A DNA stretch of 64,000 bases, from the NCBI RefSeq assembly GCF_027912835.1, contig NZ_CP115769.1, positions 1-64,000 on the forward strand. The letters run 5' to 3'. Position 1 is the stretch's first letter. The number at the start of each line of letters is the position of its first letter. Below, in pieces: positions 4,435 to 19,735 of this stretch. Origin of the DNA: Paracoccus sediminicola. GTDB taxonomy: Bacteria; Pseudomonadota; Alphaproteobacteria; Rhodobacterales; Rhodobacteraceae. The notes beneath the pieces were generated by a model that saw nothing but the letters and a program-made list of their open reading frames with translations, was not told the DNA's origin and made no database searches. A program made the translations under genes and the position numbers.

Positions 4435-4862
4435 AGCCCCTGCTACAGGATTTCGAATGAAAATGCCATCATCCCTGGCGCGCCTTAAGGGCTTCCGCTT
4501 TCCCCGCGAGATCATCGCTTATGCCGTCTGGGCCTATCATCGCTTCGCTCTGAGCTCGGCCGACGTCGAGGACCTTCTGGCAGAGCGCGGCGTGATCGTC
4601 AGCCGCAAAACCGTCCGGCTGTGGGTCAACCGGTTTGGCGCGCATTTCGCCAATTGTATCCGGCGTGACAGGCCCGCGCCGTCGGACAAGTGGCATCTGG
4701 ACGAGGTCGTCATTCCAATTCGTGGCAGGAAGCACTGGCTCTGGCGGGCGGTTGACGCCAATGGCGACACGCTCGACATCCTCGTGCAAACCCGCAGGAA
4801 TGCCAAGGCGGCAAAGCGCTTTCTGGCAAGGCTCATCGCGCGTTTCGGGCGGCCTTTGGGAG
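4409..4862 (+). mobile_element. IS6-family insertion sequence remnant
   Basis: Begins with GGCATTGCC, resembling IS6-family ends (GGCNNTGTTGCAAA type), directly after the truncated parE. It contains the 5' part of an IS6-type transposase and ends abruptly near 4862, where it meets the 3' flank of a ParA gene. Right end not present. Confidence 0.65.
4457..4861 (+). pseudogene. IS6-family transposase, N-terminal fragment
   Basis: Starts MKMPSSLARLKGFRFPREII and includes AYAVWAYHRFALSSADVEDL and the first catalytic Asp in KWHLDEVVIPIRG, all typical of IS6/IS26-group transposases. The match stops after ARLIARFGRPLG, about 135 residues in; a full enzyme is about 235. The second Asp and the Glu of the DDE triad are missing, so it is inactive. 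The frame stays open past the junction to 5194, but that tail is not transposase. Confidence 0.75.
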
Positions 4863-4891
4863 CTCAATCCCGCCACCAAATCCATACTTGC

Positions 4892-5751: not shown

Positions 5752-6291
5752 CTAAGCCCGCCGCACGGTCTTGGTGCTCACGCGGAACAGGGCAGCAATG
5801 TCGGGCAAGGGCCGGCGTTCCACGTCGCGCATACGACGCACCTCAATCTTCTGATCTTCGGTGAGGGCAGGGGGCCTGCCACCAGTGCGGCCGCGCTTCT
5901 TCGCCGCTGCTAGCCCCTCGCGGGTGCGTTCTGAGATACGCTCACGCTCAAACTGAGCGATGGAGGCGAAGACGTGGAAGATGAGCCAGCCGGCCGGTGT
6001 CGTCGTGTCGATGTCCTCGGCCAGCGACCGGAAACCGGCCCCGCGTTCGGCAATGGCTTCCACGATTTCCAGCAGGTTACGAAGCGACCGCGCCAAGCGG
6101 TCATATTTCGTCACCACGATGACATCACCGGCGCGCAGCTGGTCGAGCAGGCGGTCCAGCTCGGGGCGGTTGCGGACAGACCCGCTGCTGCGCTCGGTGA
6201 AGATGCGCTCCGCGCCGGCCGCCGTCAGGGCGTCGGTCTGGGCGTCGAGCTTCTGGTCTTCGGTTGAGACACGGGCGTAACCTAAAATCAT
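5752..6291 (-). CDS. Serine recombinase (small resolvase/invertase family)
   Basis: A 179-residue site-specific recombinase. Its catalytic N-terminal domain starts MILGYARVSTEDQKLDAQ with the nucleophile in YARVS (Ser about residue 8), followed by DRLARSLRNLLEIVE, and it ends in a short helix-turn-helix (LPDIAALFRVSTKTVRR). Size and domains are those of Tn3-type resolvases. The ATG at 6291 is chosen because the preceding reading frame lies inside the res-like repeat A. It sits at one end of a run of gene modules that are each bordered by that repeat, so it is the natural candidate for the enzyme that acts on them. Confidence 0.85.
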   Translation of the reverse strand: MILGYARVSTEDQKLDAQTDALTAAGAERIFTERSSGSVRNRPELDRLLDQLRAGDVIVVTKYDRLARSLRNLLEIVEAIAERGAGFRSLAEDIDTTTPAGWLIFHVFASIAQFERERISERTREGLAAAKKRGRTGGRPPALTEDQKIEVRRMRDVERRPLPDIAALFRVSTKTVRRA

Positions 6292-6301
6292 GCCTGAATC
6301 A

Positions 6302-6451
6302 TGACAAAAACCTCCCAAAACGGCAACGGTTTTGTCCGGAGTTTTAGTCCCGCGTAACTCGTTGGTCCGCCATGTGTGTCTAGGAAGGGACAGAAACGAC
6401 CGTTTTTGCCGTATGGGTTCTGTCAGGGGGGTTGTGTCCGATGTGCGGGAC
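6302..6451 (+). repeat. Res-like repeat, copy A (next to the resolvase)
   Basis: Contains a dyad GACAAAA...TTTTGTC (6303-6336), a second dyad GACAGAAACG-AC-CGTTTTTGCC (6390-6411) and the tail GTTCTGTCAGGGGGGTTGTG...GTGCGGGAC. The dyads, spacing and place directly ahead of the resolvase start look like the bipartite binding sites of a res locus. The tail and central word recur at B, D and E (the central word also at C). Confidence 0.6.
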
Positions 6452-6490
6452 TTTGCTGCCGTCAACGCAAAGACAAAGGATGTCTGCTTT

Positions 6491-7681
6491 TCATTCGACG
6501 GGCGTTCCGAACACAGCGACTGCGGCACCAAGAAGCGCCAGGATTGCGAAGCCCACTGTTTGCCATGAATGCAGGCGTTGCGATGCCCGGATCGCGGCTA
6601 TGCCCGATTGAAGGGCGTAATAGAGGGCAAAGGCTCGCGAAGCATAGCTGATGATTTCGAAGATGTTGGCCATCCACGTCAGCAGAATCCCGATGCCAAC
6701 CAACAGCACATAGGCCGACTTTTCCGTGACGACGCCTCTGGTCGTCTCGGCTATCAAGCCGCCCGAGCCGTTTGTGTCCGCGATTGCGGCGCTGAATTGG
6801 GCGCTAAGGGCTGCAACGACCAAAAGCAGAGGCAGGATCGGGGCAACAACCTGCATCAATTCAATGATTGCTGTTTCGTCCAAAGACAGTGGATCGGCAT
6901 CAAAAGCGTAGGTCAGCAATCCGATATAGAGGCAGTAAATTGCGGTGGATATCCACTGAGCGAGCCGCATGGACTTGATCCGCAAGGGCGCGTCATAGGC
7001 TTGCCTAAGATACCGTGAAGTCTCGAAACCCTGAACCGTCACGATCAGACCGGCCATTAGTGTCACTCCTGCCCACCCGGTGACCTGCGGCGGATCGAAC
7101 TTTAGTGCGCCTTGGCCCGTGACCTGCCCGAAATGCACTGCGAGCCCAAGCAACAGCCCCGCGATGATGGATAGCTTCAGTCCGACCGAGACCTGTTCCA
7201 TACGTTCGAGCGCGCTAAACCCGCGCGTCATCCCCGTGAATAGGATCAGCAGGAAAACGGCGGTGGTCAGCAAGTTGGCGTAGTATGCGTCGTCCAGCGT
7301 TGTCAGGCTCACGCCAAACGCGCCGAAGAGATTGAGATAATAGGCCACGGAAACGATGAAAGCGAAGGCCAGAACAACGGAAGACGCCCGTTCAAGCCCT
7401 AAGAGCAGACGAGACGGCGCAGGGCGTGCATCGATGTCCCCAATGTTGAACCTGATAGCGGCTCCGAACGAATAAGCGATCGCACACAAGCCAAGCATGA
7501 CCAGCGGCGCATATCCGCCGTAGCTGACATCAAGGATCGGCCCTAGAACAAGAAACCCGCTCCCGATGATTGAGGCCAGAGGCGTAATCGTCGCTCTCCA
7601 AACCGGCGCGTTGGAGAGGCGGGGCCAAATCAACAGGGCGCCGACAAGGACCGCGGCTGACAGAATCGCTATGTTCATCAT
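6491..7681 (-). CDS. Multipass membrane protein, transporter-like
   Basis: A 396-residue very hydrophobic protein with about ten to twelve predicted membrane helices, starting MMNIAILSAAVLVGALLIWP. The N-terminal helix pair contains TITPLASIIGSGFLVLGPI, a Gly-rich broken helix like that of APC/LeuT-fold transporters (compare YkvI-type proteins). I do not recognise a specific substrate. It stands alone between res-like repeats A and B and is read toward the resolvase gene. The assignment to the LeuT-fold group is tentative. Confidence 0.6.
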   Translation of the reverse strand: MMNIAILSAAVLVGALLIWPRLSNAPVWRATITPLASIIGSGFLVLGPILDVSYGGYAPLVMLGLCAIAYSFGAAIRFNIGDIDARPAPSRLLLGLERASSVVLAFAFIVSVAYYLNLFGAFGVSLTTLDDAYYANLLTTAVFLLILFTGMTRGFSALERMEQVSVGLKLSIIAGLLLGLAVHFGQVTGQGALKFDPPQVTGWAGVTLMAGLIVTVQGFETSRYLRQAYDAPLRIKSMRLAQWISTAIYCLYIGLLTYAFDADPLSLDETAIIELMQVVAPILPLLLVVAALSAQFSAAIADTNGSGGLIAETTRGVVTEKSAYVLLVGIGILLTWMANIFEIISYASRAFALYYALQSGIAAIRASQRLHSWQTVGFAILALLGAAVAVFGTPVE

Positions 7682-7754
7682 GCCCCGATAAGATCAAAGC
7701 GAAGTCGGCTCGGCAACTTAGCCTGATGTCTTGAAGCAGACCTTCCTTGGACGT

Positions 7755-7905
7755 GCGGCATTAGCCAAAAGGGCTCGATCCGGACCTTTTCCGCAACGCA
7801 AAATGTGCCAAAACTCAGCCGTTTCTGTCATCGGCGATAACCACCGTTTTAGGCGCATTTAGGCGCATAAGTTCTGTCACGGGGTTTATGTCCGGTGTGC
7901 GGGAC
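7755..7905 (+). repeat. Res-like repeat, copy B
   Basis: Shares with C and E the left part (GCRGCATTNGNCAAAAGGGCTC, TCCGGAC, GTGCCAAAAC). It shares with all copies the centre CCGTTTNTGTCANCGG and ACCACCGTTTT, and with A, D and E the tail GTTCTGTCACGGGGTTTATG plus TCCGGTGTGCGGGAC. Same orientation as the other copies. Confidence 0.6.
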
Positions 7906-7984
7906 AATCCGGGCTTTCGCTGCCGTTGCGCGAACGGCGGCTCTGGCAATTGATCATTGAATAGACAGATGTCATCGTCGCGGC

Positions 7985-8836
7985 GTGAAATCAGTCGAAA
8001 TCATACTTGCGCCGTACCACGGTGGCTTACGGGAGGATCGGGTTGGAGCGGGGCCGATCCGCCTGATGGAGATGGGTCTGAAAGAAGCCCTAAAGCACTC
8101 CTGCGTTGAAACCCATGTTTCTGATCTCGGTGACATACCTGAATGCGAGGGCGAGGTGGGTCGGGCATTCGAGGTCAAACGACGGGTGGCAGACGCTGTC
8201 TCTAGAGCCGTAGCCGCCGGTCATTTCCCACTCGTCCTCTCCGGAAACTGCAACGCCGAGGTTGGTACATATGCCGGTCTCGGAAGTCCCGATGTGCCGT
8301 TGATCTGGTTCGACGGTCACACCGATTTCTATACGCCAGACGACATTGACCATGGCTACTTCGACAGCATGGGCGCTGCAACTCTCACGGGGCAGTGTTG
8401 GCAGCGTCTTGCAAAGACGGTTCCGGGGTTCACCCCCTTGGACCCGCATCGTCTGATCTACTGTGGATCACGCCATCTGGAACCTGGCCTTCTGGAACGC
8501 CTTTCAGCAACTGGCGTGTCTATGGTTGAGGGCGGTGCAAACAGATCAGAACCTTTCGCCGACGCACTCGATCGGCTGCTACCGACACGTGTGGACAAGG
8601 TGCTGATTCATCTGGACATGGATTGTATTGATCCATCAGAGGGGATGGCAAACCAATATGCCGAGCCTGGCGGACTTACGGAGAAGGACCTTTTGGCGTG
8701 CCTCGACAAAATCCTGGCTCGGTCTGGGGCGCTTGGTTTGACCGTGGCGTCTTACGATCCGAGCCAAGCGGGAGCCGACAGAATTGGCGAGATCGCAATT
8801 GAGGTGATCAATCGGGTTATGGCTCACCGCGGCTAG
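7985..8836 (+). CDS. Arginase/agmatinase-family protein with a variant metal site
   Basis: A 283-residue ureohydrolase-fold protein beginning at a GTG. The metal-binding loops are visible: WFDGHTDF (DxHxD type, about residue 103) and HLDMDCIDPS (about 205). The loop that normally reads GGDHS, donating a His ligand, is here GNCNAEVG (about 79-86), so one manganese ligand is replaced by Asn. Such variants occur in divergent arginase-family proteins, so the substrate (arginine, agmatine, formiminoglutamate or other) cannot be stated. It is alone in its module between repeats B and C. Confidence 0.75.
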   Translation: MKSVEIILAPYHGGLREDRVGAGPIRLMEMGLKEALKHSCVETHVSDLGDIPECEGEVGRAFEVKRRVADAVSRAVAAGHFPLVLSGNCNAEVGTYAGLGSPDVPLIWFDGHTDFYTPDDIDHGYFDSMGAATLTGQCWQRLAKTVPGFTPLDPHRLIYCGSRHLEPGLLERLSATGVSMVEGGANRSEPFADALDRLLPTRVDKVLIHLDMDCIDPSEGMANQYAEPGGLTEKDLLACLDKILARSGALGLTVASYDPSQAGADRIGEIAIEVINRVMAHRG

Positions 8837-8879
8837 AACAGTACCAGTCGCTCTCCAAAATTAGCCATTCATCGCGAGC

Positions 8880-8980
8880 GCAGCATTTGTCAAAGAGGGC
8901 TCCTTCCGGACCTTCTCTGCGACGCAGGATGTGCCAAAACTCAACCGTTTCTGTCACCGGCGGAATCGACCGTTGTTGTC
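8880..8980 (+). repeat. Res-like repeat, copy C (right part missing)
   Basis: Matches B and E from GCAGCATTTGTCAAAGAGGG through GTGCCAAAACTCAACCGTTT and CTGTCACCGGCGGAATCGAC, then diverges after CGTTGTTGTC. The GTTCTGTCA...GTGCGGGAC tail is absent, so this copy is truncated at the junction with the tetR module. Confidence 0.6.
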
Positions 8981-9004
8981 TTGCCTGCTTATCTCGATAC
9001 AAGA

Positions 9005-9034
9005 TTGACAATAAAGATACATACCGGTAGGTAT
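9005..9034 (+). promoter_or_regulatory. Promoter with TetR-type palindromic operator
   Basis: A TTGACA box (9005-9010) is followed by the 18-bp near-perfect palindrome ATACATACCGGTAGGTAT (9017-9034), six bases before the tetR ATG. The placement over the spacer and -10 region fits autorepression of the tetR-MFS operon. Confidence 0.65.
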
Positions 9035-9039
9035 TATAT

Positions 9040-9582
9040 ATGTCAGAAGCTCATCGCCGAGAAAAGAACCCGGAACGCGTCCGCCAGATGCTGGTCGATA
9101 ACGCGTGCCGCCTCGCATCTGAAAAGGGGTTGACCGCAGTCAGCATCCAGCAACTCTCAGCTGCGGCGGGCGTGACTAAGGGTGCCTTTTTCCATCACTT
9201 TACGAACAAGCAAGACCTAGTTGATGCAGTCTTCAGCGACATGCTGTCGGAGTTCGAGCAAGAGCTTGCAGAAGGCATGTCACGAGACCCTGTTGGGCAC
9301 GGCCGCTTCACCCGAGCCTATCTGAATCTGGTCACGGAAAGCGATGCCCAGGAAAGCCGTTGGCTCTCGGTCTGGGTCTCCATGATCGCTGACGACGCGC
9401 TTCGCTCTGTTTGGCACGAGTGGTTCGGCCGCCAGTTCGCGTCTGTCCTGGAGCGGGAATGCACCCCTGAGCTCCAGGCCGTGCGCATGGCTGCCGATGG
9501 CATCTGGCTGGCCCAGCTTGCCGGAACGCACACCCCGGACAACGCCCTCAACAGCCTTCTCCTGAGGATGACCTACCCATGA
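9040..9582 (+). CDS. TetR-family transcriptional repressor
   Basis: A 180-residue regulator: the N-terminal helix-turn-helix includes GLTAVSIQQLSAAAGVTKGA and FFHHFTNKQDLVDAVFSDML (about residues 28-68), the classic TetR DNA-binding signature. The rest is a variable ligand-binding domain. The stop overlaps the start of the MFS gene (ATGA), so the two are cotranscribed, and a palindromic operator lies directly upstream. It most likely represses the pump until a toxic ligand binds. Confidence 0.88.
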   Translation: MSEAHRREKNPERVRQMLVDNACRLASEKGLTAVSIQQLSAAAGVTKGAFFHHFTNKQDLVDAVFSDMLSEFEQELAEGMSRDPVGHGRFTRAYLNLVTESDAQESRWLSVWVSMIADDALRSVWHEWFGRQFASVLERECTPELQAVRMAADGIWLAQLAGTHTPDNALNSLLLRMTYP

Positions 9583-11093
9583 GTTCACCCAAGGCCGGAG
9601 CCTCGGATAACCCGTGGCTGGTGCTCGCGATCATTTCATGCGCCCTCTTGCCGATCGGCATCGACATGACGGTGCTGAACGTCGCCTTGCCGCGACTGAC
9701 ACAGGAGCTGGGCGCGACCAATGCGGACAAGCTCTGGATGGTCAACGCATACAGCCTCGTCATGGCGGGCCTGCTTCCCGGCTTCGGTGCTCTGGCGGAC
9801 AAGATCGGCCATCGCACGATCTTGCTTGTCGGCATGTCAGTCTTTGGGCTCTCATCTCTCGTAGCCGCGTTTTCCCCGAATCCCGGCGTTCTCATCGTCG
9901 CGAGGGGGGTGCTCGCAATCGGCGCAGCGATGATGTTGCCTGCGACGATCTCGATTGTCCGACTGGTGTTTCTTGAGGATCAGGAACGGGCCACAGCCAT
10001 CGGTATCTGGGGCGGGGTATGGTCCGGCTCTGCGGCCTTGGGTCCCATCCTCGGAGGCCTGCTTCTCTCCCAGTTCTGGTGGGGCTCGGTGTTTCTCATC
10101 AACGTCCCCCTCGTGATCGTCACGTTCATGCTGACGCTTCGCTTCATTCCGCATCTGCCCGGCAACGCGGCCCAGCACTGGGACTTCGTGACCTCGGCGT
10201 TTCTGACGGTGTCCCTGATCGGCCTGCTTTACGCGCTCAAGGGCGTCTTGAAGGTGGACACTCACTGGATTGAAGTTGCGATAGCCCTCGGTGCCGGGCT
10301 TGTGTTCGGCTGGCTGTTTCTGCGTCGGCAGAGCCTGCAACCGTCGCCTCTGGTCGACTTTGGACTTTTCCGCAACCCGCGGTTCTCCGCCGGGGTCGGC
10401 ATTGCCTTTGTCGCAACCTTCGGCGTGATGGGCCTGCAATATGTTATAAGTCAAGAACTTCAACTGGTTCGCGGCTTGTCGCCGCTCGCTGCCGGGCTGT
10501 TCGCTCTTCCCCTTGCCATCGCCTCGTTCGTCAGCGGATTGGTTGCAGGGCGCTACATGCTGGGTGTCGGGATCGGTCGGATGATGTCCCTCACTGTGGC
10601 GGCGACTGCCATCGGCTTCGTCGCCTATAGGTTCACCGGCCACCTGGCCCCGATAGGGCTTGAGTTGACGGTTCTCGCCCTCATCGGCTTTGGAGCTGGT
10701 GGAGCCATGGCCGTGGCTTCGACCGCGATCATGATCAGCGCTCCCGAAGAGCAGGCCGGTATGGCCGGTTCGATTGAATCGATTTCATACGAGCTGGGTG
10801 GCACCATGGGGGTCGCCATACTGGGTAGCGTGCTGGGCAGCGTCTACGCGCGCAGCTTCTCTCCGCCAGCCGAGGCTGATTTACCGCCGGAGTCCTGGGC
10901 GAGCCTGGAGCAGGCGATCGCATCCGCCCAAGACCTGTCCCCCGACTTGACCGAGCAGGTTGCGGATGCCGGACGAACGGCCTACCTGGATGGCGTTTCC
11001 GCGAGCCTTACGTTGGCCTCTGTTGTCATCTTGTTGCTGTTCTGCGCGCTGCTGATGGTTCGCAGGAAGACCACTCGGGTCATCGGATTGTAG
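9579..11093 (+). CDS. MFS multidrug efflux transporter (DHA2, 14-helix type)
   Basis: A 504-residue major-facilitator protein. It has the DHA2 opening (IGIDMTVLNVALPRLTQELG, about residues 26-45), motif A-like GALADKIGHR (about 70) and the antiporter motif region LGPILGGLL (about 152). Fourteen membrane segments are expected from length and hydrophobicity. Similar proteins (EmrB/QacA/SmvA-like) export quaternary ammonium compounds, dyes and drugs in exchange for protons. Coupled to the upstream TetR gene by a 4-base overlap. Substrate not deducible. Confidence 0.88.
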   Translation: MSSPKAGASDNPWLVLAIISCALLPIGIDMTVLNVALPRLTQELGATNADKLWMVNAYSLVMAGLLPGFGALADKIGHRTILLVGMSVFGLSSLVAAFSPNPGVLIVARGVLAIGAAMMLPATISIVRLVFLEDQERATAIGIWGGVWSGSAALGPILGGLLLSQFWWGSVFLINVPLVIVTFMLTLRFIPHLPGNAAQHWDFVTSAFLTVSLIGLLYALKGVLKVDTHWIEVAIALGAGLVFGWLFLRRQSLQPSPLVDFGLFRNPRFSAGVGIAFVATFGVMGLQYVISQELQLVRGLSPLAAGLFALPLAIASFVSGLVAGRYMLGVGIGRMMSLTVAATAIGFVAYRFTGHLAPIGLELTVLALIGFGAGGAMAVASTAIMISAPEEQAGMAGSIESISYELGGTMGVAILGSVLGSVYARSFSPPAEADLPPESWASLEQAIASAQDLSPDLTEQVADAGRTAYLDGVSASLTLASVVILLLFCALLMVRRKTTRVIGL

Positions 11094-11116
11094 TCGGAGC
11101 CACTACAGCAACTACT

Positions 11117-11205
11117 GGACAAAAGGCCGACGTTTTTGTCACCGGACGAAACGACCGTTTTTGACGCACACCTTCTGGCAGGAGGTTTATGTCCGGTGTG
11201 CGGAC
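11117..11205 (+). repeat. Res-like repeat, copy D
   Basis: Has the centre CGTTTTTGTCACCGG and CGAAACGACCGTTTTTGAC, and the tail CTTCTGGCAGGAGGTTTATG plus TCCGGTGTGCGGAC. The left part shared by B, C and E is missing. Same orientation as the others. The following 11206-11412 stretch has no gene I can support. Confidence 0.6.
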
Positions 11206-11412
11206 GAAGGGGCCGTTCAGAGGTCTGAATTCAACGGCCTCTTCAGATACCGACCTTTCGCTGATTTCTTAAGAATCTAGACAGTAAGTATGGCTCGGGT
11301 CTGCGAAGCCGCGGCCAAGCCTCCCCCATCGTTCGGCATTGTGATCGGCGACGGTTTGCTTCATATCAGCGGTTGCTGATACCTTATTCCTTCCAAGCAT
11401 TGATGGCAGGCT

Positions 11413-11991
11413 ATGAGTTCGAAGGATAACCAAGAACAGCGGCGCCGGAGCGGACGGCCGCTCATGATTTTGCCTATTCTTCTGTTTGGGTTGCTGGGCG
11501 TAGTCTTCTACTGGGGCCTCTGGAACAACGACGACCGGTTGCCCTCGACGCTGATCGGAAGACCAATCCCGGAATTCGCGCTCCCGCCCATCGAAGGGCG
11601 GCAGGACGGCCTAGCCTCGGCGAACCTGCTAGACCAGGTTTCTCTCGTCAACGTCTGGGCGTCGTGGTGCGTCCCCTGCCGCACGGAGAACCCGCTTCTC
11701 GTCGATCTTGCCGAAGCGGGCACCGTTCCGATCTACGGTATCAACTACAAGGACAATGCCGAGGAGGCGCTGGGTTTCCTCGAAGAGCTCGGCGATCCCT
11801 TCACCCGCATCGGCGCGGACCGATCAGGCCGCGTTGCGATAGACTGGGGCGTCTATGGAGTGCCGGAAACATACATAATCGACGCCGAGGGGCGCATTGC
11901 ATACAAGCATGTCGGCCCCTTTGATCAGGCCTCGCTTGAGGAGGACATTCTGCCGGTCGTGCGCCGGTTGCAGGCTGAGAGCGACCCGTGA
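11413..11991 (+). CDS. Membrane-anchored thiol:disulfide oxidoreductase, CcmG/DsbE type
   Basis: A 192-residue thioredoxin-fold protein with a single N-terminal membrane anchor (LMILPILLFGLLGVVFYWG, residues 18-36) and a periplasmic domain holding WASWCVPCR (active-site CVPC about residues 84-87). Opening LIGRPIPEFALPP and late GVPETYIID are CcmG/DsbE hallmarks. In its home pathway such a protein reduces apocytochrome c cysteines. Here it leads a four-gene run with a second thioredoxin and a CcdA-type electron donor, so it may instead serve a general periplasmic thiol-repair role. Stop overlaps the next start (GTGA). Confidence 0.85.
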   Translation: MSSKDNQEQRRRSGRPLMILPILLFGLLGVVFYWGLWNNDDRLPSTLIGRPIPEFALPPIEGRQDGLASANLLDQVSLVNVWASWCVPCRTENPLLVDLAEAGTVPIYGINYKDNAEEALGFLEELGDPFTRIGADRSGRVAIDWGVYGVPETYIIDAEGRIAYKHVGPFDQASLEEDILPVVRRLQAESDP

Positions 11992-12509
11992 GGCGACGTG
12001 ACGTCCTTGCCGGAGTCTTGGCGCTTGCGGCAAGCCCTGCCTCCGCCCGACCACCGATCCCTAATCACGGGACTCCGCGTGATCTCCTGTCGCCGCCTTT
12101 CGTGGATGGAGATGGACGGGATCTGACGCTGGCGGACTTCGAGGGACGTGTCGTGCTTCTGAACATTTGGGCGACTTGGTGCCCGCCTTGTCGCGAGGAG
12201 ATGCCGACGCTCGACGCGCTGCAAGCGCGCCTCGGCGGATCGGATTTTCATGTTCTGCCGCTGTCGATCGATCGGGCCGGTCTCGAACCTGTGCGCCGCT
12301 TCTACCGAGAGACCGGCATTCGCAACCTCGATCTCTATATCGCGGAGGATACGCGCGCGATGCTGGCCTTGGCCGTGGTGGGTCTGCCGACAACGATTCT
12401 GATCGACCGCATTGGGCGCGAGCGGGGGCGCCTCGCAGGCCCGGCCGAATGGAACAGCCCCGAAGCCGTTGCGCAGATAAGCGCTCTTATTGACGAACGT
12501 AAGCAATAG
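11988..12509 (+). CDS. TlpA-like periplasmic thioredoxin
   Basis: A 173-residue protein starting at GTG and overlapping the upstream gene by 4 bases. The signal sequence MRRRDVLAGVLALAASPASA is Tat-like (RRRDVL) with a probable cleavage after ASA. The mature part has IWATWCPPCREEMP (active-site CPPC) and VVGLPTTILIDRIG with the cis-Pro Pro-Thr, as in TlpA/ResA proteins. It likely receives electrons from the CcdA protein encoded next. Confidence 0.83.
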   Translation: MRRRDVLAGVLALAASPASARPPIPNHGTPRDLLSPPFVDGDGRDLTLADFEGRVVLLNIWATWCPPCREEMPTLDALQARLGGSDFHVLPLSIDRAGLEPVRRFYRETGIRNLDLYIAEDTRAMLALAVVGLPTTILIDRIGRERGRLAGPAEWNSPEAVAQISALIDERKQ

Positions 12510-12597
12510 GACATGGAAAAGCACGACGACCGCGCCAGCCGTTCCGCTCCGTGCGCACACGTGGTGGCGGTCTACCGATCAGTTTGGAGATGTGGAT

Positions 12598-13326
12598 TTG
12601 ATTGAACTTTCCGTTCTTGGACTAATGGCGGCATTGCTGGCCGGTGCCGTTTCCTTTCTGTCGCCCTGCGTGCTGCCGCTCGTGCCCGGCTACGTATCCT
12701 ACGTTGCCGGACGTACGGTCACCGGCAGTGCAGTTCCTTCGAAGGGGCGGGCCGTCTGGCTCAGCTTCTGTTTCGTCCTTGGCTTCTCCACGATATTCAT
12801 CGCGCTTGGGGCCTCTGCCACCGCGCTCGGTCAGACGCTGCTGCAGTGGCGCTACGAACTCAACCTCGTCGGCGGCGCGATCGTGATCCTGTTCGGTCTG
12901 TTCATGATCGGGGCAGCGCGCCTGTCGGCCATGGAGCGCGACCTGCGTTTCCATCTCGACCTGCCGGGCGGGCAACCGGTCGCCTCCTACGTGCTCGGAC
13001 TCGCCTTCGGTTTCGGCTGGACACCGTGCATCGGGCCGATCCTCGGTGCCATCCTAACCGCCAGCGCGACAAGCGCGACGATTGGCGAGGGCGTCGCATT
13101 GCTTGCCGTCTACTCGGCCGGCCTTGGGATCCCGTTTCTGGTCGTCGCGGGGTTCACCGACAGTATTGCCGGCAGGCTGCGCGGCATCGGTCGTTGGGGT
13201 CGCCGCCTGCATCAGGCTGCGGGCGGCGTCATGATCCTGATGGGCCTGGCGATGATGACCGGGCGGTTGAGCGCACTGGCCTACTGGCTGCTGGACACCT
13301 TCCCTGTCCTTGCGCGGATCGGGTGA
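12598..13326 (+). CDS. ccdA: CcdA/DsbD-type membrane thiol electron transporter
   Basis: An integral membrane protein of six helices that passes reductant from cytoplasmic thioredoxin to periplasmic thioredoxin-like proteins. Conserved features: GAVSFLSPCVLPLVPGYVSY with the first Cys and FGFGWTPCIGPILG with the second, the pair that cycles during electron transfer. The TTG at 12598 is chosen because GGAG at 12586-12589 is correctly spaced; GTG at 12592 is too close to it, and a longer frame from 12490 is unlike the family. Together with the two upstream genes it makes a self-contained reducing system. Confidence 0.85.
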   Translation: MIELSVLGLMAALLAGAVSFLSPCVLPLVPGYVSYVAGRTVTGSAVPSKGRAVWLSFCFVLGFSTIFIALGASATALGQTLLQWRYELNLVGGAIVILFGLFMIGAARLSAMERDLRFHLDLPGGQPVASYVLGLAFGFGWTPCIGPILGAILTASATSATIGEGVALLAVYSAGLGIPFLVVAGFTDSIAGRLRGIGRWGRRLHQAAGGVMILMGLAMMTGRLSALAYWLLDTFPVLARIG

Positions 13327-13330
13327 ACAG

Positions 13331-13945
13331 ATGCGACTGTACGAGAAACATATCCTCCCTCGGCTGACGCATCTGGCGATGGGCCAGGATCAACTTCTTC
13401 CCTACCGGCGCCGCGCCATCTCCGGGCTGCATGGGCGTGTGCTGGAGATCGGAATCGGCTCGGGCCTGAACATTGCGCTCTACCCCGAGGCCGTGCGCCA
13501 GATCATCGGTATTGATCCGTCGCCCGAACTCCTCTCTCGGGCCGCGCAAACCTCCCATGGACTGATGCCCGCGGCCGAGATGATCGAGGGCGTGGCCGAA
13601 GCATTGCCGCTCGAAGATCGCAGCGTCGATTGCGTCGTCGCCACCTGGACACTCTGCAGCGTTTCGGAACCGGAGAAGGCTCTCGCCGAGATCCGGCGCG
13701 TTCTCAAGCCGGATGGCGTCTTCCGCTTCGTCGAGCATGGCCTGGCGCCCGGACCCCGTATCCGGCGCTGGCAACGCTGGCTGACGCCTGTCTGGAAACA
13801 CTGCGCCGGGAACTGCCATCTTGACCGCCCGACGGCCGACTTGATCGAGACAAGCGGCTTCCGCATGGAGCGGCTCAACACCGGTTACGCGACAGGTCCG
13901 AAGCCCTTGGTTTTCATGTATGAGGGACAAGCTCGCCTCTACTGA
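13331..13945 (+). CDS. Class I SAM-dependent methyltransferase
   Basis: A 204-residue methyltransferase with VLEIGIGSGLNIALYP (motif I, SAM loop), IGIDPSPELLSRA (motif II Asp) and ATWTLCSVSEPEKALAEIRR (motif IV region). The C-terminal part GTGYATGPKPLVFMYEG-like segment resembles UbiE/phospholipid N-methyltransferase-type proteins. Begins 4 bases after ccdA, so in the same transcript. The substrate is unknown; arsenite, thiol or lipid methylation are all possible in a metal-stress module. Confidence 0.75.
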   Translation: MRLYEKHILPRLTHLAMGQDQLLPYRRRAISGLHGRVLEIGIGSGLNIALYPEAVRQIIGIDPSPELLSRAAQTSHGLMPAAEMIEGVAEALPLEDRSVDCVVATWTLCSVSEPEKALAEIRRVLKPDGVFRFVEHGLAPGPRIRRWQRWLTPVWKHCAGNCHLDRPTADLIETSGFRMERLNTGYATGPKPLVFMYEGQARLY

Positions 13946-14056
13946 GGAAGCTTGGAAACAGGACAATCTCGGCTTTCGATCCGTGGCGCAACTGATGGCA
14001 AGGTAGCCAATTCTCGCCTCGAACTTTCGCCGAAAATTTTGCGGTGATGAGGTGTT

Positions 14057-14716
14057 ATGAGCAGTCATCAAGATAACCGGCAGGCCAATCTGACGCGCGG
14101 CATCCGGGTCGAGATCGCCAGCCTCGTCTACAACATCATCGAGGTCGTCGTATCCGTCACCGTGGGACTTCTGACCGGCAGCGCAGCGCTGGTGAGTTGG
14201 GGCCTCGACAGTACGGTCGAGGCCACCTCGGCTGCGACTCTGATCTGGCGCTTGAAGAGTGAGGTGGACGGTGCCGACAAGCGCACGGTCCTGCACCGCA
14301 AGAAGGTCGCGCTCTACGTGGTTGCCTGTGCCTTCTGGATCGTCGTCGCGGCGATCCTCTACGAGGCGGTCTCCGCCTTCATTTCGCAGAAGGCGCCGGG
14401 CTTCAACTGGTGGGGTATCGCGATTCTGGGTGCTTCGCTCGTGGCCAACCCGTTCCTCGCCTGGGGCAAGTATCGCTACGGCAAGCGGCTCGATGCGCCC
14501 GCCCTGAAGTACGATGCCAAGGACACCATGATCTGCCAGTATCAGACGATCGTGGTGTTGGCCGGGATCGGTCTGACGCAATGGATGGGCTGGTGGTGGG
14601 CCGACCCGGTGGCGGCGCTTCTGATCGTGCCCTACGTTGCATGGGAGGCGTTCGAGGCCACGAAGGATGCGCGGTCGGTCGATCCGGACGAGGGCGAAGC
14701 TACTGCCGAGGCCTGA
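14057..14716 (+). CDS. Cation diffusion facilitator-like transporter (short)
   Basis: A 219-residue membrane protein with five to six helices, starting MSSHQDNRQANLTRGIRVEI. SLVYNIIEVVVSVTVGLLTG and SAALVSWGLDSTVEATSA match the first helices of CDF proteins, where an Asp-rich metal site lies in helix 2; the second HxxxD-type site is represented by KYDAKDTMICQYQ. The long cytoplasmic C-terminal domain of CzcD-like exporters is absent. Its last 17 bases overlap the convergent P450 gene. It probably exports a divalent metal; the substrate is not known. Confidence 0.7.
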   Translation: MSSHQDNRQANLTRGIRVEIASLVYNIIEVVVSVTVGLLTGSAALVSWGLDSTVEATSAATLIWRLKSEVDGADKRTVLHRKKVALYVVACAFWIVVAAILYEAVSAFISQKAPGFNWWGIAILGASLVANPFLAWGKYRYGKRLDAPALKYDAKDTMICQYQTIVVLAGIGLTQWMGWWWADPVAALLIVPYVAWEAFEATKDARSVDPDEGEATAEA

Positions 14717-15947
14717 CGTTACGCATGATGAACCGAGATTTGGGCATGGGCGGCAGTTCTCCGGTTTCCAGATCCAGATCCTGATCCGGCACTTCGTAGT
14801 CGATGGCGTTCACGAAGAAACTGCAAAACGCCTTCATCTGGCTGATCGCGATCCACTCGCCCGGACAACGGTGGTTCCTGTGGTGATCGCCACCGCCCTG
14901 CGGAATGAACTCGTAGGGAGTGACCTCCCGATCGTGAAACCGCTCGGGCCGGAACTCTTGCGGCGCGTCCCACGAACGAGCGTCGGTATTCGTGCCGTAG
15001 AGGTCGAGCAGAACCCTGTACCCTTTGGGAAAGCGATATCCGCGCCACTCGAAATCGCTCTTCACCCGTGCCGCAACCGCGGGAAAGAACGGATACAGAC
15101 GGCGGACCTCTTGCACGAAAGGTTCGAGCTGTCCCTCGTCGTCCTTCAGCTTTTGCCGCCACTCGGGATGCCGATGTAAAGCATGCGCCGCCTGAACTAT
15201 GAACACGGATACCGCGACGGTCGGGCGCAGGACATTCAACAGCTCTACGGCGGCCACCCTGGGGGTCAACAACTCCCCATCGAGATCGCGCCATGTCGCG
15301 ATGATATGAAGGGCACTTTCCTGCGTCGGCTGAAGCTCACCATCGCGGACCTGTTGGATTATCCGTGCTGCCCATTTTTCCAGGCGGTGGCGCGCCAGAC
15401 GCGCGCGCCAGTGTTTGGGGCCAAGGGCCCCGGCGTCCTGAAAAAGCGCTGTAAGCTGCGCCCTTCGGGTCGCCACCTCAGCTTCATCAAGCGGCACCCT
15501 GGCCCAGGCGCAGACAGCTCTTGTGAGCATTTCGCGCACTTCGTCATAGAGGACGACCTCGTTCCTCGCCTCCCAGTCCGGCGCATATTTGTCCAACATG
15601 TGAAGCGACGTGCCCTGAAGCGCGGCGATCCGCTCGGTCCCCATGAGTGACATGAACATCTTCTTGCGGTGCTGGTGGGCAGCGCCGTCCAATCCCTGAA
15701 CGCCGCCTTCGCCCAGCAGGGTCTTCTGTATGCGGCCCGGCATCGAGCCCGCGCGGATCAGTTTATCCTCGGAATAGAAAACTTCCGCTGCCGCCGCGCC
15801 GGTCATGCAGATCGTCTCTTGAAGGAGGATGCGGGTTTCGAACAGGTCTGTGTCGAGTGCGCGGCAGGTCTCCGAGATGAACCCATATGGGTTGCGCAGC
15901 AGGGCGAGTGTGCTGTCAAAGCCTTTCGCAGATGGTATGCCGAACAT
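14700..15947 (-). CDS. Cytochrome P450, CYP152-type fatty-acid peroxygenase
   Basis: A 415-residue P450. The heme-ligand loop is FIPQGGGDHHRNHRCPGEW (Cys about residue 363), with the GGGDH...HRCPGEW form special to the CYP152 (SPalpha/BSbeta) group rather than the usual FGxGxRxCxG. The I-helix has NVLRPTVAVS, where the Arg-Pro pair replaces the acid-Thr of monooxygenases and binds the fatty-acid carboxylate. Such enzymes use hydrogen peroxide to hydroxylate or decarboxylate fatty acids without a redox partner. It lies 3 bases after lspA, in the CDF-lspA-P450 transcript, so it may be induced with the metal response and could consume peroxide. Confidence 0.85.
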   Translation of the reverse strand: MFGIPSAKGFDSTLALLRNPYGFISETCRALDTDLFETRILLQETICMTGAAAAEVFYSEDKLIRAGSMPGRIQKTLLGEGGVQGLDGAAHQHRKKMFMSLMGTERIAALQGTSLHMLDKYAPDWEARNEVVLYDEVREMLTRAVCAWARVPLDEAEVATRRAQLTALFQDAGALGPKHWRARLARHRLEKWAARIIQQVRDGELQPTQESALHIIATWRDLDGELLTPRVAAVELLNVLRPTVAVSVFIVQAAHALHRHPEWRQKLKDDEGQLEPFVQEVRRLYPFFPAVAARVKSDFEWRGYRFPKGYRVLLDLYGTNTDARSWDAPQEFRPERFHDREVTPYEFIPQGGGDHHRNHRCPGEWIAISQMKAFCSFFVNAIDYEVPDQDLDLETGELPPMPKSRFIMRNVRPRQ

Positions 15948-15950
15948 GGG

Positions 15951-16451
15951 TTACACCCCCGTTGTGTTTTCCTTGCGTTCACTCTGACCAGGCTTGTCCT
16001 TCGCAGAGCGGAAGCTGTCCCAGAACAGCAGGGCTGCGCCGCAGAAAATCGTTACGTCCGCGAGATTGAAGGACGGCCAGTGGTATGATCCGTAATGGAA
16101 GTCGAGAAAGTCAGGAACGGCCTGATAGCGTACGCGGTCAAGAATATTGCCGAGTGCGCCGCCGATGATCAGACCGAGAGCGGCAGCTGTCAGCCTGTCC
16201 GGCGCGCGCCATAACCAGATCAATAGCCATGCCACGATCACGCCAGCAAGCGCGATGAGACCCCACCACGGTACGAACCCGCCGAGCATACCGAAGCTGA
16301 CCCCATCGTTCAGAACCCGCACGAGGTTAAGAAAGGGTAAAACCTCGACCCCGCTCTCGAGCGCCGGTGTGGTCAGGGCGAGCGCCTTGGTGCCCTGATC
16401 GAGACCGAGCGCTGCGATTGCGCAGAGCCCACCGAGAACGCGACCGTTCAT
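15951..16451 (-). CDS. lspA: Prolipoprotein signal peptidase (signal peptidase II)
   Basis: A 166-residue, four-helix protease that cleaves lipoprotein signal peptides. It begins MNGRVLGGLCAIAALGLDQ; catalytic aspartates are in GGALGNILDRVRY and FNLADVTIFCGA, and the family GxxxFG-like GVSFGMLGG is present. The ATG at 16451 overlaps the stop of the upstream CDF gene by 4 bases (ATGA). An extra plasmid or transposon copy of lspA beside a CDF transporter is a recurring arrangement in mobile cadmium/zinc-resistance modules; its benefit is unclear. Confidence 0.88.
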   Translation of the reverse strand: MNGRVLGGLCAIAALGLDQGTKALALTTPALESGVEVLPFLNLVRVLNDGVSFGMLGGFVPWWGLIALAGVIVAWLLIWLWRAPDRLTAAALGLIIGGALGNILDRVRYQAVPDFLDFHYGSYHWPSFNLADVTIFCGAALLFWDSFRSAKDKPGQSERKENTTGV

Positions 16452-17302
16452 GCCGTCGCCTTCAGATCGCCCCGCGCGTCGCGGATGATGGCCCAAGCGG
16501 AGTGCAGGAACAGTCCGGCGATACCGAAGGCGACGATAAGGTCGGGCCACGCGCTGCCCAGCCACGCCACGAGACCGGCGGCGATGACGACCGCCGCATT
16601 GCCGATAGCGTCGTTGCGCGAGAACAGCCAGACAGCCCGCATGTTCGCGTCGCCCTTGCGGAATCGCAGCAGCGGCAGAACGGAGACGACGTTCACGACA
16701 AGGGCGATCATACCGAGCAGGCCCATGAGACCTGCATCCGGCGTCGTCTGTTCGAAGACCCGGACGATGGTCGTGCCGAGGACGCCAAGACCGAGGAGCC
16801 CGAGGAAGATGCCCTGGATCAGAGCCGACCGTGCCCGCCAAGCGAGGCTCCAGCCGATGGCCAGCACGCCGAGGAAGGTGATCGCGCCATCGCCGATGAA
16901 ATCGAGCGCATCGGCCTTCACGGCCTGCGATCCGGAAATGAAACCGCCGATCATTTCGAGGACCCCGTATCCCACGTTCAGGATCACGACGATCCAGAGG
17001 GCACGGCGGTAGGCCGGGTCCTGATGGGCAGGATTCGGCGGAATGTCTTCATCGCCCTCGATCCGGTCGAAGCCATAGCCTGTCACCGCGACTGCCTTTT
17101 CGATGTCCGGCAGGCGCACTTCGGGTGCAGTCAGTGTCATGATGTGCGTCGCGGCCGACACTTTCACATCGCCGGGCGCGACCCCGGCTGCCTGTGCCGC
17201 CCGCTCGATCTGCGCGGCATCCTTGGCGCAATCCATACCGGAAACCCGGTAACGGACGGGCGGGACATCTGCCGTCGATCCGGCATTTTCGGTGTTGGCC
17301 AT
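16448..17302 (-). CDS. CDF heavy-metal efflux protein with N-terminal HMA domain
   Basis: A 284-residue protein: an N-terminal heavy-metal-associated domain (YRVSGMDCAKDA, about residues 18-29, with one Cys instead of the usual CxxC), then a CDF membrane domain. The metal sites are KADALDFIGDGA (DxxxD) in helix 2 and FSRNDAIGNAAV in helix 5. It should export zinc, cadmium or lead by proton antiport. It is divergent from a CmtR-like sensor and is followed by lspA and the P450. Confidence 0.85.
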   Translation of the reverse strand: MANTENAGSTADVPPVRYRVSGMDCAKDAAQIERAAQAAGVAPGDVKVSAATHIMTLTAPEVRLPDIEKAVAVTGYGFDRIEGDEDIPPNPAHQDPAYRRALWIVVILNVGYGVLEMIGGFISGSQAVKADALDFIGDGAITFLGVLAIGWSLAWRARSALIQGIFLGLLGLGVLGTTIVRVFEQTTPDAGLMGLLGMIALVVNVVSVLPLLRFRKGDANMRAVWLFSRNDAIGNAAVVIAAGLVAWLGSAWPDLIVAFGIAGLFLHSAWAIIRDARGDLKATA

Positions 17303-17340
17303 GGTCGCGCTATTCCTGCTAGGATGAATCGAAGAACAAC

Positions 17341-17360
17341 ATATCAGCGAGGAGTGATAT
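17341..17360. promoter_or_regulatory. ArsR/CmtR-type operator between divergent genes
   Basis: ATATCA-8-TGATAT inverted repeat (17341-17346 and 17355-17360) in the 56-base gap between the metal exporter and its regulator; the right arm overlaps the regulator ATG. ArsR-family dimers bind such 12-2-12-like dyads, so this likely represses both directions. Confidence 0.6.
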
Positions 17361-17703
17361 GGCGCAATTGGTCGATGACCGCAAGAGCGCAACCATCGAG
17401 CGACGGGCGAAGCTGTTCCGCGGCTTCGCGGACCCGAGCCGCCTGGCCATCCTCGGTGCACTTTGCAACGAGCCATTGGCCGTTCACGAGCTCGTCGAGC
17501 GGACGGAACTTTCGCAACCCAACGTCTCCAACCATCTGAGGTGCCTGCTGGAGTGCGGGCTTGTCGCCAGCGATCGCGATGGGCGTTTCATCCGCTACCG
17601 TATCAGCAGCCCGCGCATCACGGTTCTTCTGAGCGATGTGGACGCACTTCTCGACGTGGTCGCAGAGGGCGTTGAGGCGTGTGACAATTATCGTGAGGCG
17701 TGA
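17359..17703 (+). CDS. ArsR-family metal sensor, CmtR-like (Cd/Pb)
   Basis: A 114-residue winged-helix repressor. ELSQPNVSNHLRCLLECGLV is the recognition-helix region. Cys62 and Cys66 (RCLLECG) plus Cys108 near the C-terminus (EACDNY) reproduce the three-cysteine pattern of CmtR, which senses cadmium and lead. It is divergent from the HMA-CDF exporter, with a palindrome in between. Metal identity is inferred from the Cys spacing only. Confidence 0.85.
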   Translation: MAQLVDDRKSATIERRAKLFRGFADPSRLAILGALCNEPLAVHELVERTELSQPNVSNHLRCLLECGLVASDRDGRFIRYRISSPRITVLLSDVDALLDVVAEGVEACDNYREA

Positions 17704-17888
17704 GTCAGAACGGACGGCCGGTCGACTCGGCGCAGATCGGTTGGAAAGATGTTGTCCGTGTGCAGGGTCCGACCGGAATCCTGCTGAGGTTCGACAAGCT
17801 GGCTTCGGAAGAGACACCATTCATGTATCACTGCCACATCCTCGAACACGAGGATGCGGGCATGATGGGGCAGCTTACGGTCACATAA
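17700..17888 (+). pseudogene. Multicopper oxidase, C-terminal fragment
   Basis: Only the last 62 codons of a multicopper oxidase (CotA/CueO/bilirubin-oxidase type): GRPVDSAQIGWKDVVRV, then FMYHCHILEHEDAGMMGQL, which contains the HCHxxxH type 1/type 3 copper ligands and axial Met. A full enzyme is about 450-600 residues; the upstream part was lost where the ArsR gene now begins. A GTG overlaps the ArsR stop, but a stable product is unlikely. Confidence 0.8.
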
Positions 17889-18059
17889 CAGGACCCCACC
17901 CGCTCGACACCGGGCGTCGTCAAGAGCTTACGTCTTCTTGCGGCGTTCTATCAGGTGCCGGTGTCGCCTTGTTGAAACGCATTACGGAGTATGTCTAGAC
18001 CCGAACGGAGAACACCTCGCTAAGCTGCGGGTCCGCCGAAGCGGCCGTCCAGTCGCTCG

Positions 18060-18199
18060 GCAGCATTCGTCAAAAAGGGCTCCTTCCGGACGTTCTCCGC
18101 AGCGCAGTATGGGCCCAAACCCGTACGTTTTTGTCACCGGCGCTTACCACCGTTTTTGGCGCATGGGTTCTGGCAGGGAGTTTATGTCCGGTCTGCGGG
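18060..18199 (+). repeat. Res-like repeat, copy E (most complete)
   Basis: Contains every part: GCAGCATTCGTCAAAAAGGG, TCCGGACGTTCTCCGCAGCG, CGTTTTTGTCACCGG, ACCACCGTTTTTGGCGCATG, GGTTCTGGCAGGGAGTTTAT and GTCCGGTCTGCGGG. It ends exactly where a Tn5053-like terminal repeat (TGTAGTTTTTCA) begins. The preceding 17889-18059 stretch shows no gene. Confidence 0.65.
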
Positions 18200-18281
18200 T
18201 GTAGTTTTTCAAGATCAAGTGCAGCAGCCTGTCATAGGCGGTTCAGTGAACAGCAGCAGCGTCGAAACAGCCGTTTGCGCG
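18200..18281 (+). repeat. Left end of the outer Tn5053-like transposon (first part)
   Basis: TGTAGTTTTTCAAGATCAAG and the following CAGCAGCCTGTCATAGGCGG, GTTCAGTGAAC closely match the left end of the intact transposon at 26261 (TGTCGTTTTTCACAAATAAG, CAGCAGCCTGTCACAGACGG). The match is cut by the IS256-family element and continues beyond it (19689 to about 19735: AACGGCCTGAAGGAGCCC, CCAATGCTACGCAA). Confidence 0.65.
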
Positions 18282-19678
18282 GTAGTGCCCCGGGGGATGG
18301 TGTAAGAGCGCCGACCTTCGGAGAGGTCCAAAGCTGATCAGGTCGCCACGGCGGACAGCCTGATGTCGGGATTGTCGGTGACGCGCGCGAGGCTTTCAAG
18401 AGACATATATCTCCGCGCAACCGTCCATTCGTCATTGGTTTCAAGCATCAGCGCGCCGACGAGCCGGATGATTGCCTCGTCGTTCGGGAAGATGCCGATG
18501 ACGTCAGACCTGCGCTTGATCTCCCGGTTCACCCGCTCCAGTGGATTTGTCGACGCGATCTGAGCCCAGTGCTCGCGGGGAAAATCCATGTAGGCGAGCA
18601 CGTCGTCGCGCGAGACGTCCATGAGGGTGCCGAGCCTCGCCTGCTTCTCGCGCAGTGCGTCCGCGACGACCTCCCATTGGGCTTCGGCATCCGCCTTGTT
18701 TTCCTGGGCGAAGATCGTCTTCAGCATGGCTGCCACAGCCGTGCGCTGCTTGGTCGGAGCATGGGCGAGCGCGTTGCGCATCCAGTGAACGCGACAGCGC
18801 TGGTGCGTTGCATCGAACACTCGCCGCGCAGCAGCCCGCAGCCCCTTGTGGTCATCGGCTACGACCAGCTTCACACCGCGCAGGCCACGGTCTGCGAGAG
18901 AGCGCAGGAAGTCGGTCCAGAACGTTTCTGCTTCGGAAGGACCGGTGGCGACGCCGAGAACCTCGCGCTTGCCGTCCTCGTTGACCGCGACGGCGATTAT
19001 CACAGCGCGGCTGACGATCCGTCCGCCCTCACGCACCTTCACGTAGGTCGCGTCGAGCCAGAGATACGGCCAGGCTCCTTCCAGCGGGCGAGAGAGGAAG
19101 GCGTTCACCCGCTCGTCGATTTCGACGCAGAGGCGACTGACCTGGCTCTTCGACATGCCGCCCGCGCCCATGGCCTTCACCAGATCGTCCACGGAGCGCG
19201 TGGAAACACCTTGGACGTAGGCCTCCTGAATCACCGCCACGAGCGCCTTCTCGGCTGTGCGGCGCGGCTCCAGGAAGCTGGGCAGGTAGCTCCCTTTTCT
19301 CAGTTTCGGGATCTCCAGCGCGATCCGCCCGGCACGGGTGTCCCAGTCCCGGTCCCGGTAGCCGTTCCGCTGAACCTCCCGCAGGGGCGAACGTGCGCCC
19401 TTCGCGGCGCCGGTTCGCTCTTCTACCTCCGCTTCCATGATCCGCTCGGCCGCGAAGGCCAGCATCTCGCGGACGAGGTCGCCGTCAGCCTGCTTCTCAA
19501 CCAGCTCGATCAGCGTCATTCTGTCGTCGGTCATCGTCATCTCCGTTCTTGGTTCAAGGTCTCGCAACCCGAACCTGCCCGAAGATCGACGATGGCCGCC
19601 AGCGTCACACCCGGCCGCGCGCTGCGCTACGCCAGGGGCTCCGCGCGCGGCCTCCTACACCAACCGGTGGGGCACTAC
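18282..19678 (-). mobile_element. IS256-family insertion sequence, complete
   Basis: Bounded by inverted ends GTAGTGCCCC (18282) and GGGGCACTAC (19678) and flanked by the direct repeat CGTTTGCGCG (18272-18281 and 19679-19688), which fits the 8-9 bp target duplication of IS256 elements allowing for one ambiguous base. It carries one intact transposase gene. It has split the subterminal repeat region of the outer transposon. Confidence 0.85.
18338..19534 (-). CDS. IS256-family (Mutator-type) transposase
   Basis: A 398-residue DDE transposase. Seen: [38 protein letters not shown] with the first Asp, [19 protein letters not shown] with the second Asp, [14 protein letters not shown], and the C-terminal Glu region [20 protein letters not shown]. 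The ATG at 19534 is preferred because an AACGGAG ribosome site is six bases upstream. Length is normal for the family and no frameshift is visible, so it may be active. Confidence 0.9.
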
Positions 19679-19735
19679 CGTTTGCGCGGTCCTTCGCGAA
19701 CGGCCTGAAGGAGCCCTTCGTGTCCAATGCTACGC

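Follow-up and report, generated by a model that had tools for sequence, protein, structure and literature searches.

The DNA analysed here (the window) comprises the first 64 kb of a contig of 146 kb that belongs to the 3.5-Mb genome of Paracoccus sediminicola. It starts with repABC-type genes (RepC at 2713-3993), which are followed by the gene of a small serine resolvase and by five repeats, A to E, with gene modules between them. An original prediction, made from the sequence alone, had taken this arrangement for a possible cassette array driven by the resolvase. Our follow-up supports this reading with corrections: judged from the sites, their polarity, the grammar of their order and the exchange of modules in other genomes, the locus is probably a gene-cassette array run by the small serine resolvase.

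Resolvase, repeats and gene modules

As predicted, the resolvase gene stands at one end of the array with copy A against its start. Its product carries the Resolvase domain of small serine recombinases (Table 1) and an HTH_32 match that lies under the curated cut-off; among its solved relatives, Gin DNA-invertase and gamma-delta resolvase score best, and Tn3 and Sin resolvases are also found. A site I and accessory motifs that resemble those of related genes lie upstream, as is characteristic of serine resolvase/res systems.

The five repeats are mosaic in makeup and all lie on the plus strand. Their likeness is far above chance: within its own genome, copy E matches B with an E-value of 1.4e-23, C with 5.7e-19 and D with 1.6e-13. 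Copy A was absent from these matches, and a separate comparison revealed 56 nt (6393-6448) that are 79-80% like D and E. According to an alignment of 66 sites, the central AC of a full site is flanked by a left half, with the core part GCCAAAACTCAACCGTTTCTGTCACCGGCGGAAACG, and by a right half (CGTTTTTGGCGCATAGGTTCTGGCAGGGGGTTTATGTCC). The centre of each site is a dyad of the type GACARAAACG-AC-CGTTTYTGYC, in which arms of about 10 bp flank two base pairs, and these are AC in 152 of 163 sites. In comparison to res, the sites recurrently show two motifs in inverted orientation left of the centre and two in direct orientation right of it. The predicted five copies in one direction are real repeats, but the four motifs they had been thought to share do not occur in every copy. 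Copy A is a right half only (6389-6458), joined to the resolvase's own res site I; C is a left half only, D lacks the outer left part, and B carries an insertion of 10 bp. An outer GGGCTCCTTCCGGACC extension was considered as a component of the site and rejected, since only some sites carry it.

The modules named in the prediction (membrane protein, arginase-like, tetR-MFS, and metal and thiol genes) were all recovered by open reading frame (ORF) and Pfam scans. No Pfam match at 1e-3 was obtained for the membrane protein, and the right-half accessory motif is absent from the start of module C-D.

Table 1. Coordinates of the resolvase gene, its res site, the repeat sites and the modules in the window.
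Feature	Position	Strand	Remarks
Small serine resolvase gene, 179 aa	5752..6291	-	Pfam PF00239 Resolvase, 6.5e-47
Accessory part of res (GACAAAAACC..GGTTTTGTC, then half-site motifs)	6292..6386	+	Alike upstream of related resolvases; part of the res profile
Site I of res (junction A)	6387..6412	+	Central AC 6399-6400, 109 bp upstream of the resolvase start
Right half-site, start of cassette 1	6401..6451	+	
Cassette 1 (A-B)	6401..7842	+	One ORF: membrane protein 6491-7681 (-)
Site B, both halves	7771..7911	+	Central AC 7843-7844; 10-bp insertion after the centre
Cassette 2 (B-C)	7845..8968	+	One ORF: arginase-family protein 7985-8836 (+), Pfam PF00491, 8.2e-23
Site C, left half only	8896..8982	+	Central AC 8969-8970
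Module C-D	8971..11153	+	TetR 9040-9582, MFS 9579-11093
Site D, both halves	11106..11208	+	Central AC 11154-11155; left half without outer extension
Module D-E	11156..18148	+	Two thioredoxin-like proteins, DsbD_TM, methyltransferase, two cation efflux proteins, P450, signal peptidase II, ArsR
Site E, both halves	18076..18205	+	Central AC 18149-18150; also present in P. isoporae (96%)

The platform site

Positions 6302-6392 are the res region of the window resolvase. Its relatives carry their res regions upstream of the gene as well, with GACAAAA..GGTTTTGTC-type motifs near the gene and, 108-111 bp away from its start, a dyad built around two central base pairs. The distance from resolvase start to centre amounts to 108-110 bp at eight occupied loci (the window, P. 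isoporae L035, Salipiger pTPRO3 [L031], Phaeobacter pP14_e [L034], L118, L131, L134 and L247; L, G and C numbers denote loci, genomes and contigs) and to 108-111 bp at three empty loci (L036, L149 and L143). At all eight occupied loci the right arm of the dyad runs into the right half of a cassette. The right arm of junction A is part of the first cassette, and the array begins, as in integrons, at a platform site beside a recombinase gene. Where a cassette is absent (L036, L037, L149 and L143), the dyad at the position of site I is palindromic; it reads GGGACAGAAACG-AC-CGTTTGTGTCC in L036 (Mameliella, with a 96% identical resolvase) and GGGACAGAAACG-GC-CGTTTGTGTCCC in L037. Among 985 plasmid records, 10 of the 40 resolvase matches listed stop at query position 707-712, which is the end of the dyad.

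The genome of the window also harbours a 16.8-kb replicon (G000:C7, L143) with a second, 77% identical resolvase (7515-8175), whose site I is empty and palindromic; a filled and an empty platform thus coexist in one genome. Another resolvase-like stretch, 39% identical to the window resolvase, is located at 39934-40377 of the window.

Sites and arrays in other genomes

A profile of 25 sites detected sites in 66 of 394 genomes of the family (E <= 1e-3). With a profile of 66 sites, they were found in 72 of 292 genomes of the order, representing 38 of 112 genera; all 72 belong to the same family, and the family and order samples overlap. In the class sample, 10 of 385 genomes were positive, seven of them outside the family, where three matches have E-values below 1e-7 (G507, G639 and G712) and the others are weaker.

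Arrays follow a simple grammar: res, right half, cassette, any number of full sites each followed by a cassette, and a left half. Neighbouring sites within 10 kb on one contig lie on the same strand in 41 of 42 pairs from 27 genomes of the family search (37 of 38 without the window). The loci fetched earlier contain 45 pairs on the same strand and two on opposite strands, and the 34 loci fetched later, as a hold-out, 37 of 38 on the same strand. The steps allowed by the grammar, i.e. from a right half or full site to a full site or left half, account for 41 of the 45 same-strand steps in the earlier and 34 of the 37 in the later loci. The hold-out loci were picked by the author from the order and class tables, mostly with at least two close hits per contig, and strand was no criterion; the strand and step counts of the fetched loci omit repeated or unwanted loci (L032, L035, L056, L057, L059, L061, L138 and L148). 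The grammar is best displayed by pTPRO3, which carries on one strand a split resolvase gene, a right half at 483, sites at 1095, 1919 and 5795 and a left half at 7713; its first two cassettes are filled by a GNAT gene and by one of 199 aa. On a Pseudosulfitobacter plasmid (L267, 5996-6172), a right half, 66 bp and a left half form a cassette without a gene, and a similar arrangement occurs on plasmids of further strains.

We delimited 72 cassettes under 4.2 kb with a median of 1.26 kb; these counts additionally omit L139, L141 and L155. A single ORF of at least 85 aa is present in 42 of them, directed toward the right-half end in 21 and away from it in 21, and a platform promoter is therefore not implied. 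The 30 cassette proteins scanned include two acetyltransferases, four methyltransferases, a homocysteine methyltransferase, a GmrSD-type domain, lipocalin-like and PNPOx proteins, an alpha/beta hydrolase, a redox protein, a member of the beta-lactamase family (PF00144), MFS and LysE proteins, pentapeptide repeats, and trypsin-like and TPR proteins. Ten lack a Pfam match at 1e-3, two have sub-cut-off matches only, and there is no transposase among the 30. The possibility that the repeats are promoters of unrelated genes was rejected, given that cassette genes face both directions.

Exchange of cassettes and modules

The prediction implied that modules between the same sites should vary among genomes, and such exchange was indeed found. 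The GNAT cassette of pTPRO3 (488-1172) recurs at 99.7% identity in another genome (L117, 169-853), and the match extends from 6 bp before one dyad centre to 4 bp after the next. Two further cassettes, shared by L118 and L146 (93.3%, 2088 bp) and by L129 and L261 (92.6%, 815 bp), end 8-33 bp from the centre. Every end of these three cassettes, which occur in differing contexts, thus lies 4-33 bp from a dyad centre. The match of a fourth pair (L155/L249, 90%) is less precise, its ends lying 4-44 bp from a centre. Plasmid pTB3 of Roseobacter denitrificans and a plasmid of Sulfitobacter dubius are 91% identical over 6929 bp and diverge 6 bp past a centre. L123 and L129 hold different cassettes between left flanks that are 80% alike over 94 bp and right flanks that are 76% alike over 72 bp, counted from the centre.

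The window itself has a counterpart in P. isoporae (G085:C23). Up to 6451 the two replicons match at 100% over 1691 bp, the far side of this match being the end of the fetched contig, and from 19678 they match at 99.94% over 6583 bp. Between A and E, however, the window holds four modules (11.7 kb) and P. isoporae one cassette of 1.54 kb, whose two ORFs resemble the cation-efflux and ArsR genes of the window. The replicons also diverge beyond 26260.

Array starts, targets and linked resolvases

The outer arms of an array are, on this reading, the target's own. In 19 arrays with both ends they pair with each other at a mean of 7.79 of 12 bases, compared with 3.13 for random arms and 6.76 for arms re-paired among the arrays, and the observed mean was reached by 0.05% of shuffles. 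L127 and L154, with an insertion sequence (IS) at the core, were kept in this set although they lower the mean. For 19 hold-out arrays the values were 8.47 against 7.92 after re-pairing (1.26% of shuffles). A res profile built from 18 resolvase-linked res regions scored at least 8 bits in the left flanks of 25 of 36 array starts outside the linked set and in 6 of 739 control pieces. The 36 starts include L142, L237 and L248, each of which lies near a 53-55% identical resolvase. Almost all alignments of the high-scoring starts (23 of 25) span nearly the whole profile, and the core arm itself supplies part of the score. One high-scoring control (L146) obtains exactly the score of the res belonging to its locus, with which it is probably identical. 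Most arrays therefore appear to begin at a res site even without a close resolvase gene.

A 1.24-kb element with the ends TGATTGCGGC is found at the cores of L154 (about 9321-13626), L127, L239 and L240, and in L154 two copies flank a cassette. At some array ends (L237, L242, L249, L264 and L132) a different inverted motif is present, GAGTTTTTCACC or GGTGAAAAACTC, and may represent a further type of target.

Close resolvases (E <= 1e-55) occur in 13 of the 66 site-bearing genomes and in 23 of the 328 other genomes of the family (odds ratio 3.25, p 0.0026), a comparison that treats two draws of 394 genomes as identical, the handles agreeing where both list them. A close resolvase is thus associated with the sites, yet most arrays have no such gene, and most show no resolvase within the fetched stretch.

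Neighbouring mobile elements in the window

An ORF at 4403-5194, near the resolvase, matches an IS240-type DDE domain over the beginning of the profile alone (positions 2-59 of 139) and is likely a truncated transposase. At about 18281-19679, an IS256-family element with a Transposase_mut ORF on the minus strand (18338-19567), apparent ends GGTAGTGCCCC and an 8-bp duplication GTTTGCGC follows site E; it is absent from P. isoporae.

Discussion

The sites, their polarity and grammar, the palindromic targets, the cuts near the centre of three shared cassettes and the occurrence of one platform with different cassettes, all read from DNA sequence, suggest a common mode of assembly. We propose that the res site, located upstream of the resolvase gene at a distance of about 109 bp, serves as the platform, and that a cassette would comprise a right half-site, one or more genes and a left half-site. 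In a cassette circle, the junction of the two halves would form a single full site, about 83 bp long and built around the asymmetric 2-bp centre. A serine recombinase would then join this site to site I of res or to a full site of an array by exchange at the centre, leaving the right half of the cassette beside the platform and the left half at the far end. Cassettes would be lost again when two such direct repeats recombine. Serine recombinases act on double-stranded dyads, which undergo exchange at their 2-bp centre, and the central AC, being non-palindromic, can set the observed polarity. The cut points of the shared cassettes point to site I as the place of exchange. The family of the window resolvase presumably provides the recombining enzyme; cassette circles are expected to exist, the accessory half-sites probably form the synapse, and the system may still be active. 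A resolvase is normally limited to resolving direct repeats on one molecule. The altered motif order of the cassette sites may free the enzyme from this restriction, and the changed accessory layout together with the asymmetric AC centre are candidates for turning a resolvase to integration.

Several observations weigh against this proposal. The resolvase gene of pTPRO3 is split, and 53 of the 66 site-bearing family genomes have no close resolvase, so that most arrays would either depend on an enzyme supplied in trans or have lost it. Near L248, L237 and L142, a right half lies about 99, 179 and 187 bp, respectively, upstream of the 53-55% identical resolvases. Some targets do not fit, namely L127 and L154 with an IS at their centre and L128 and L133 with weak arms. 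In L139 (8139-9501), the halves occur in reverse order, left before right, 1.4 kb apart. A search for the empty site of a chromosomal cassette of G100 among 101 genomes of the genus carries no weight either way, as the DNA around the cassette is not conserved. The remaining points concern boundaries. The window and P. isoporae part at the outer edges of the halves and not at the centre. The P. isoporae module that recurs in G008 (L137 against L136, 99.6%), with no site found at that place, likewise has its boundary at the outer edge of the half. The tetR-SMR module of pP14_e is present in the small Sulfitobacter plasmids L271-L273 (99.3-99.4%), in which no sites were found, and the boundary is again found at the outer edges. 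Matches to the terminal part of module D-E (up to about 1.5 kb, 96-98%) are present in 15 other loci without the site and stop at 18079-18105. The stretch 6396-7745 of the window, with cassette 1, is 98% alike in a chromosome-size contig of G008, with a different right half and a match that ends before B, probably another boundary of this kind. Genes must also become linked to half-sites by a process other than central exchange, and cassettes may be born in this way. The reversed halves of L139 look like a split full site, and a related left half is found in L141.

Could the arrays be a by-product of plasmid traffic, in which ordinary res x res fusions and deletions left stray half-res sites between modules without any dedicated cassette unit? 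PMC9501444 describes that plasmids exchange DNA by way of their res sites and resolvases, a recognised mechanism, the cassette sites have motifs in common with res, and arrays with one cassette are frequent, the direct step from right to left half making up 15 of 34 allowed steps in the later and 11 of 41 in the earlier loci. We nevertheless consider this explanation unlikely, as the cassette site departs from res in a recurrent manner and in as many as 66 of 394 genomes, the cassettes are compact with a single ORF in the majority, and three units recur with cuts near the centre. RecA-dependent homologous exchange between dispersed repeats would account for the exchanges that stop at the outer edges of half-sites, all the more since the halves are often at least 75% alike. 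It is improbable, given that the cuts in the three shared cassettes fall 4-33 bp from the centre, at places whose flanking halves or arms are unlike, and that target and cassette have only the arms of about 10 bp in common.

The least credible explanation, to which we assign very little weight, is that the repeats represent the termini of transposons or IS, or marks left by transposons that hunt for res sites. It could draw on the IS at some cores (L154) and on the res-hunter transposons for which res sites are known targets, as mentioned in PMC12217951. The original prediction had named known IS ends as an outcome that would overturn it, and the data speak otherwise: no transposase is encoded among the scanned cassette proteins, neighbouring sites share a strand instead of being inverted, and cuts fall near dyad centres. 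Ends like those of Tn7 or Tn5053 with tandem transposase boxes, suggested by repeated TTTTTGTC motifs, were rejected on account of the one-strand sites and the same cuts.

On balance, and with some reserve, we favour a second and independent gene-capture platform beside integrons, in which a small serine resolvase would use its attI-like res together with attC-like sites of about 83 bp to capture, stack and exchange cassettes, often of a single gene, as double-stranded DNA. It would be present in roughly one-sixth to one-quarter of the sampled genomes of the family and order and sporadic in other alphaproteobacterial families. If enzyme activity bears this out, the arrays represent a new kind of gene-capture system. 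Integrons are the textbook route by which bacteria stockpile gene cassettes; if our reading is true, cassette gene capture has evolved at least twice, here with double-stranded sites. It would also uncover an alphaproteobacterial cassette pool that has so far been unlabelled (72 cassettes delimited, a third of the scanned proteins without a Pfam match), and make it testable how a resolvase limited to resolution could be made to integrate. With the site profile, others can identify such arrays in genomes. The general idea of module shuffling by resolvases is already in print, as indicated by the citation of Kholodii 2001, "The shuffling function of resolvases", in PMC9501444 and PMC12217951. 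Among the matches listed from open-access PMC text, no description of resolvase-based cassette arrays was found; subscription journals were outside the scope of this search, and the novelty of the cassette sites and arrays is therefore provisional.

Comparison with known systems

The pdif modules of Acinetobacter, which depend on XerCD, are similar in that mobile modules lie between short recombination sites on plasmids (PMC9501444). They differ by their dif-type sites and the use of the host's XerC and XerD, whereas the arrays described here are built on direct repeats of about 83 bp that contain res motifs, and some of their platforms have a linked resolvase. With Tn3-type resolvase/res systems and resolvase-mediated shuffling they have in common the resolvase, a site I with accessory sites and, as the cut points suggest, exchange at site I. 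In contrast to these systems, a site layout unlike that of res builds arrays of several cassettes, without a transposase in the scanned cassettes. SCC elements carry Ccr, a large serine recombinase, and form tandem insertions at one site; a serine recombinase and tandem insertion at one site are found here as well, but the 179-aa resolvase stays at the platform.

The closest parallel, already drawn in the original prediction, is the integron, and it extends further than had been proposed, with an attI-like res at a nearly fixed distance from the gene and arrays in many genomes. The differences concern the recombinase, which is of the serine type here and a tyrosine recombinase in integrons, the dyad with its 2-bp centre, and the balanced orientation of single-ORF cassettes (21:21), whereas integron cassette genes mostly share one orientation. 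As to folding in the manner of attC, only one of four sites folded clearly better as single-stranded DNA than its shuffles (z -1.39, 0.63, -2.74 and 1.71). The integron integrase model TIGR02249 had no match in 40 array genomes and likewise none in 14 control genomes. Both systems nevertheless possess a platform site beside the recombinase gene, compact cassettes that each bring one site, and arrays of a single polarity. Integron arrays without an integrase gene are known as CALINs, and the arrays described here also occur without a nearby recombinase gene.

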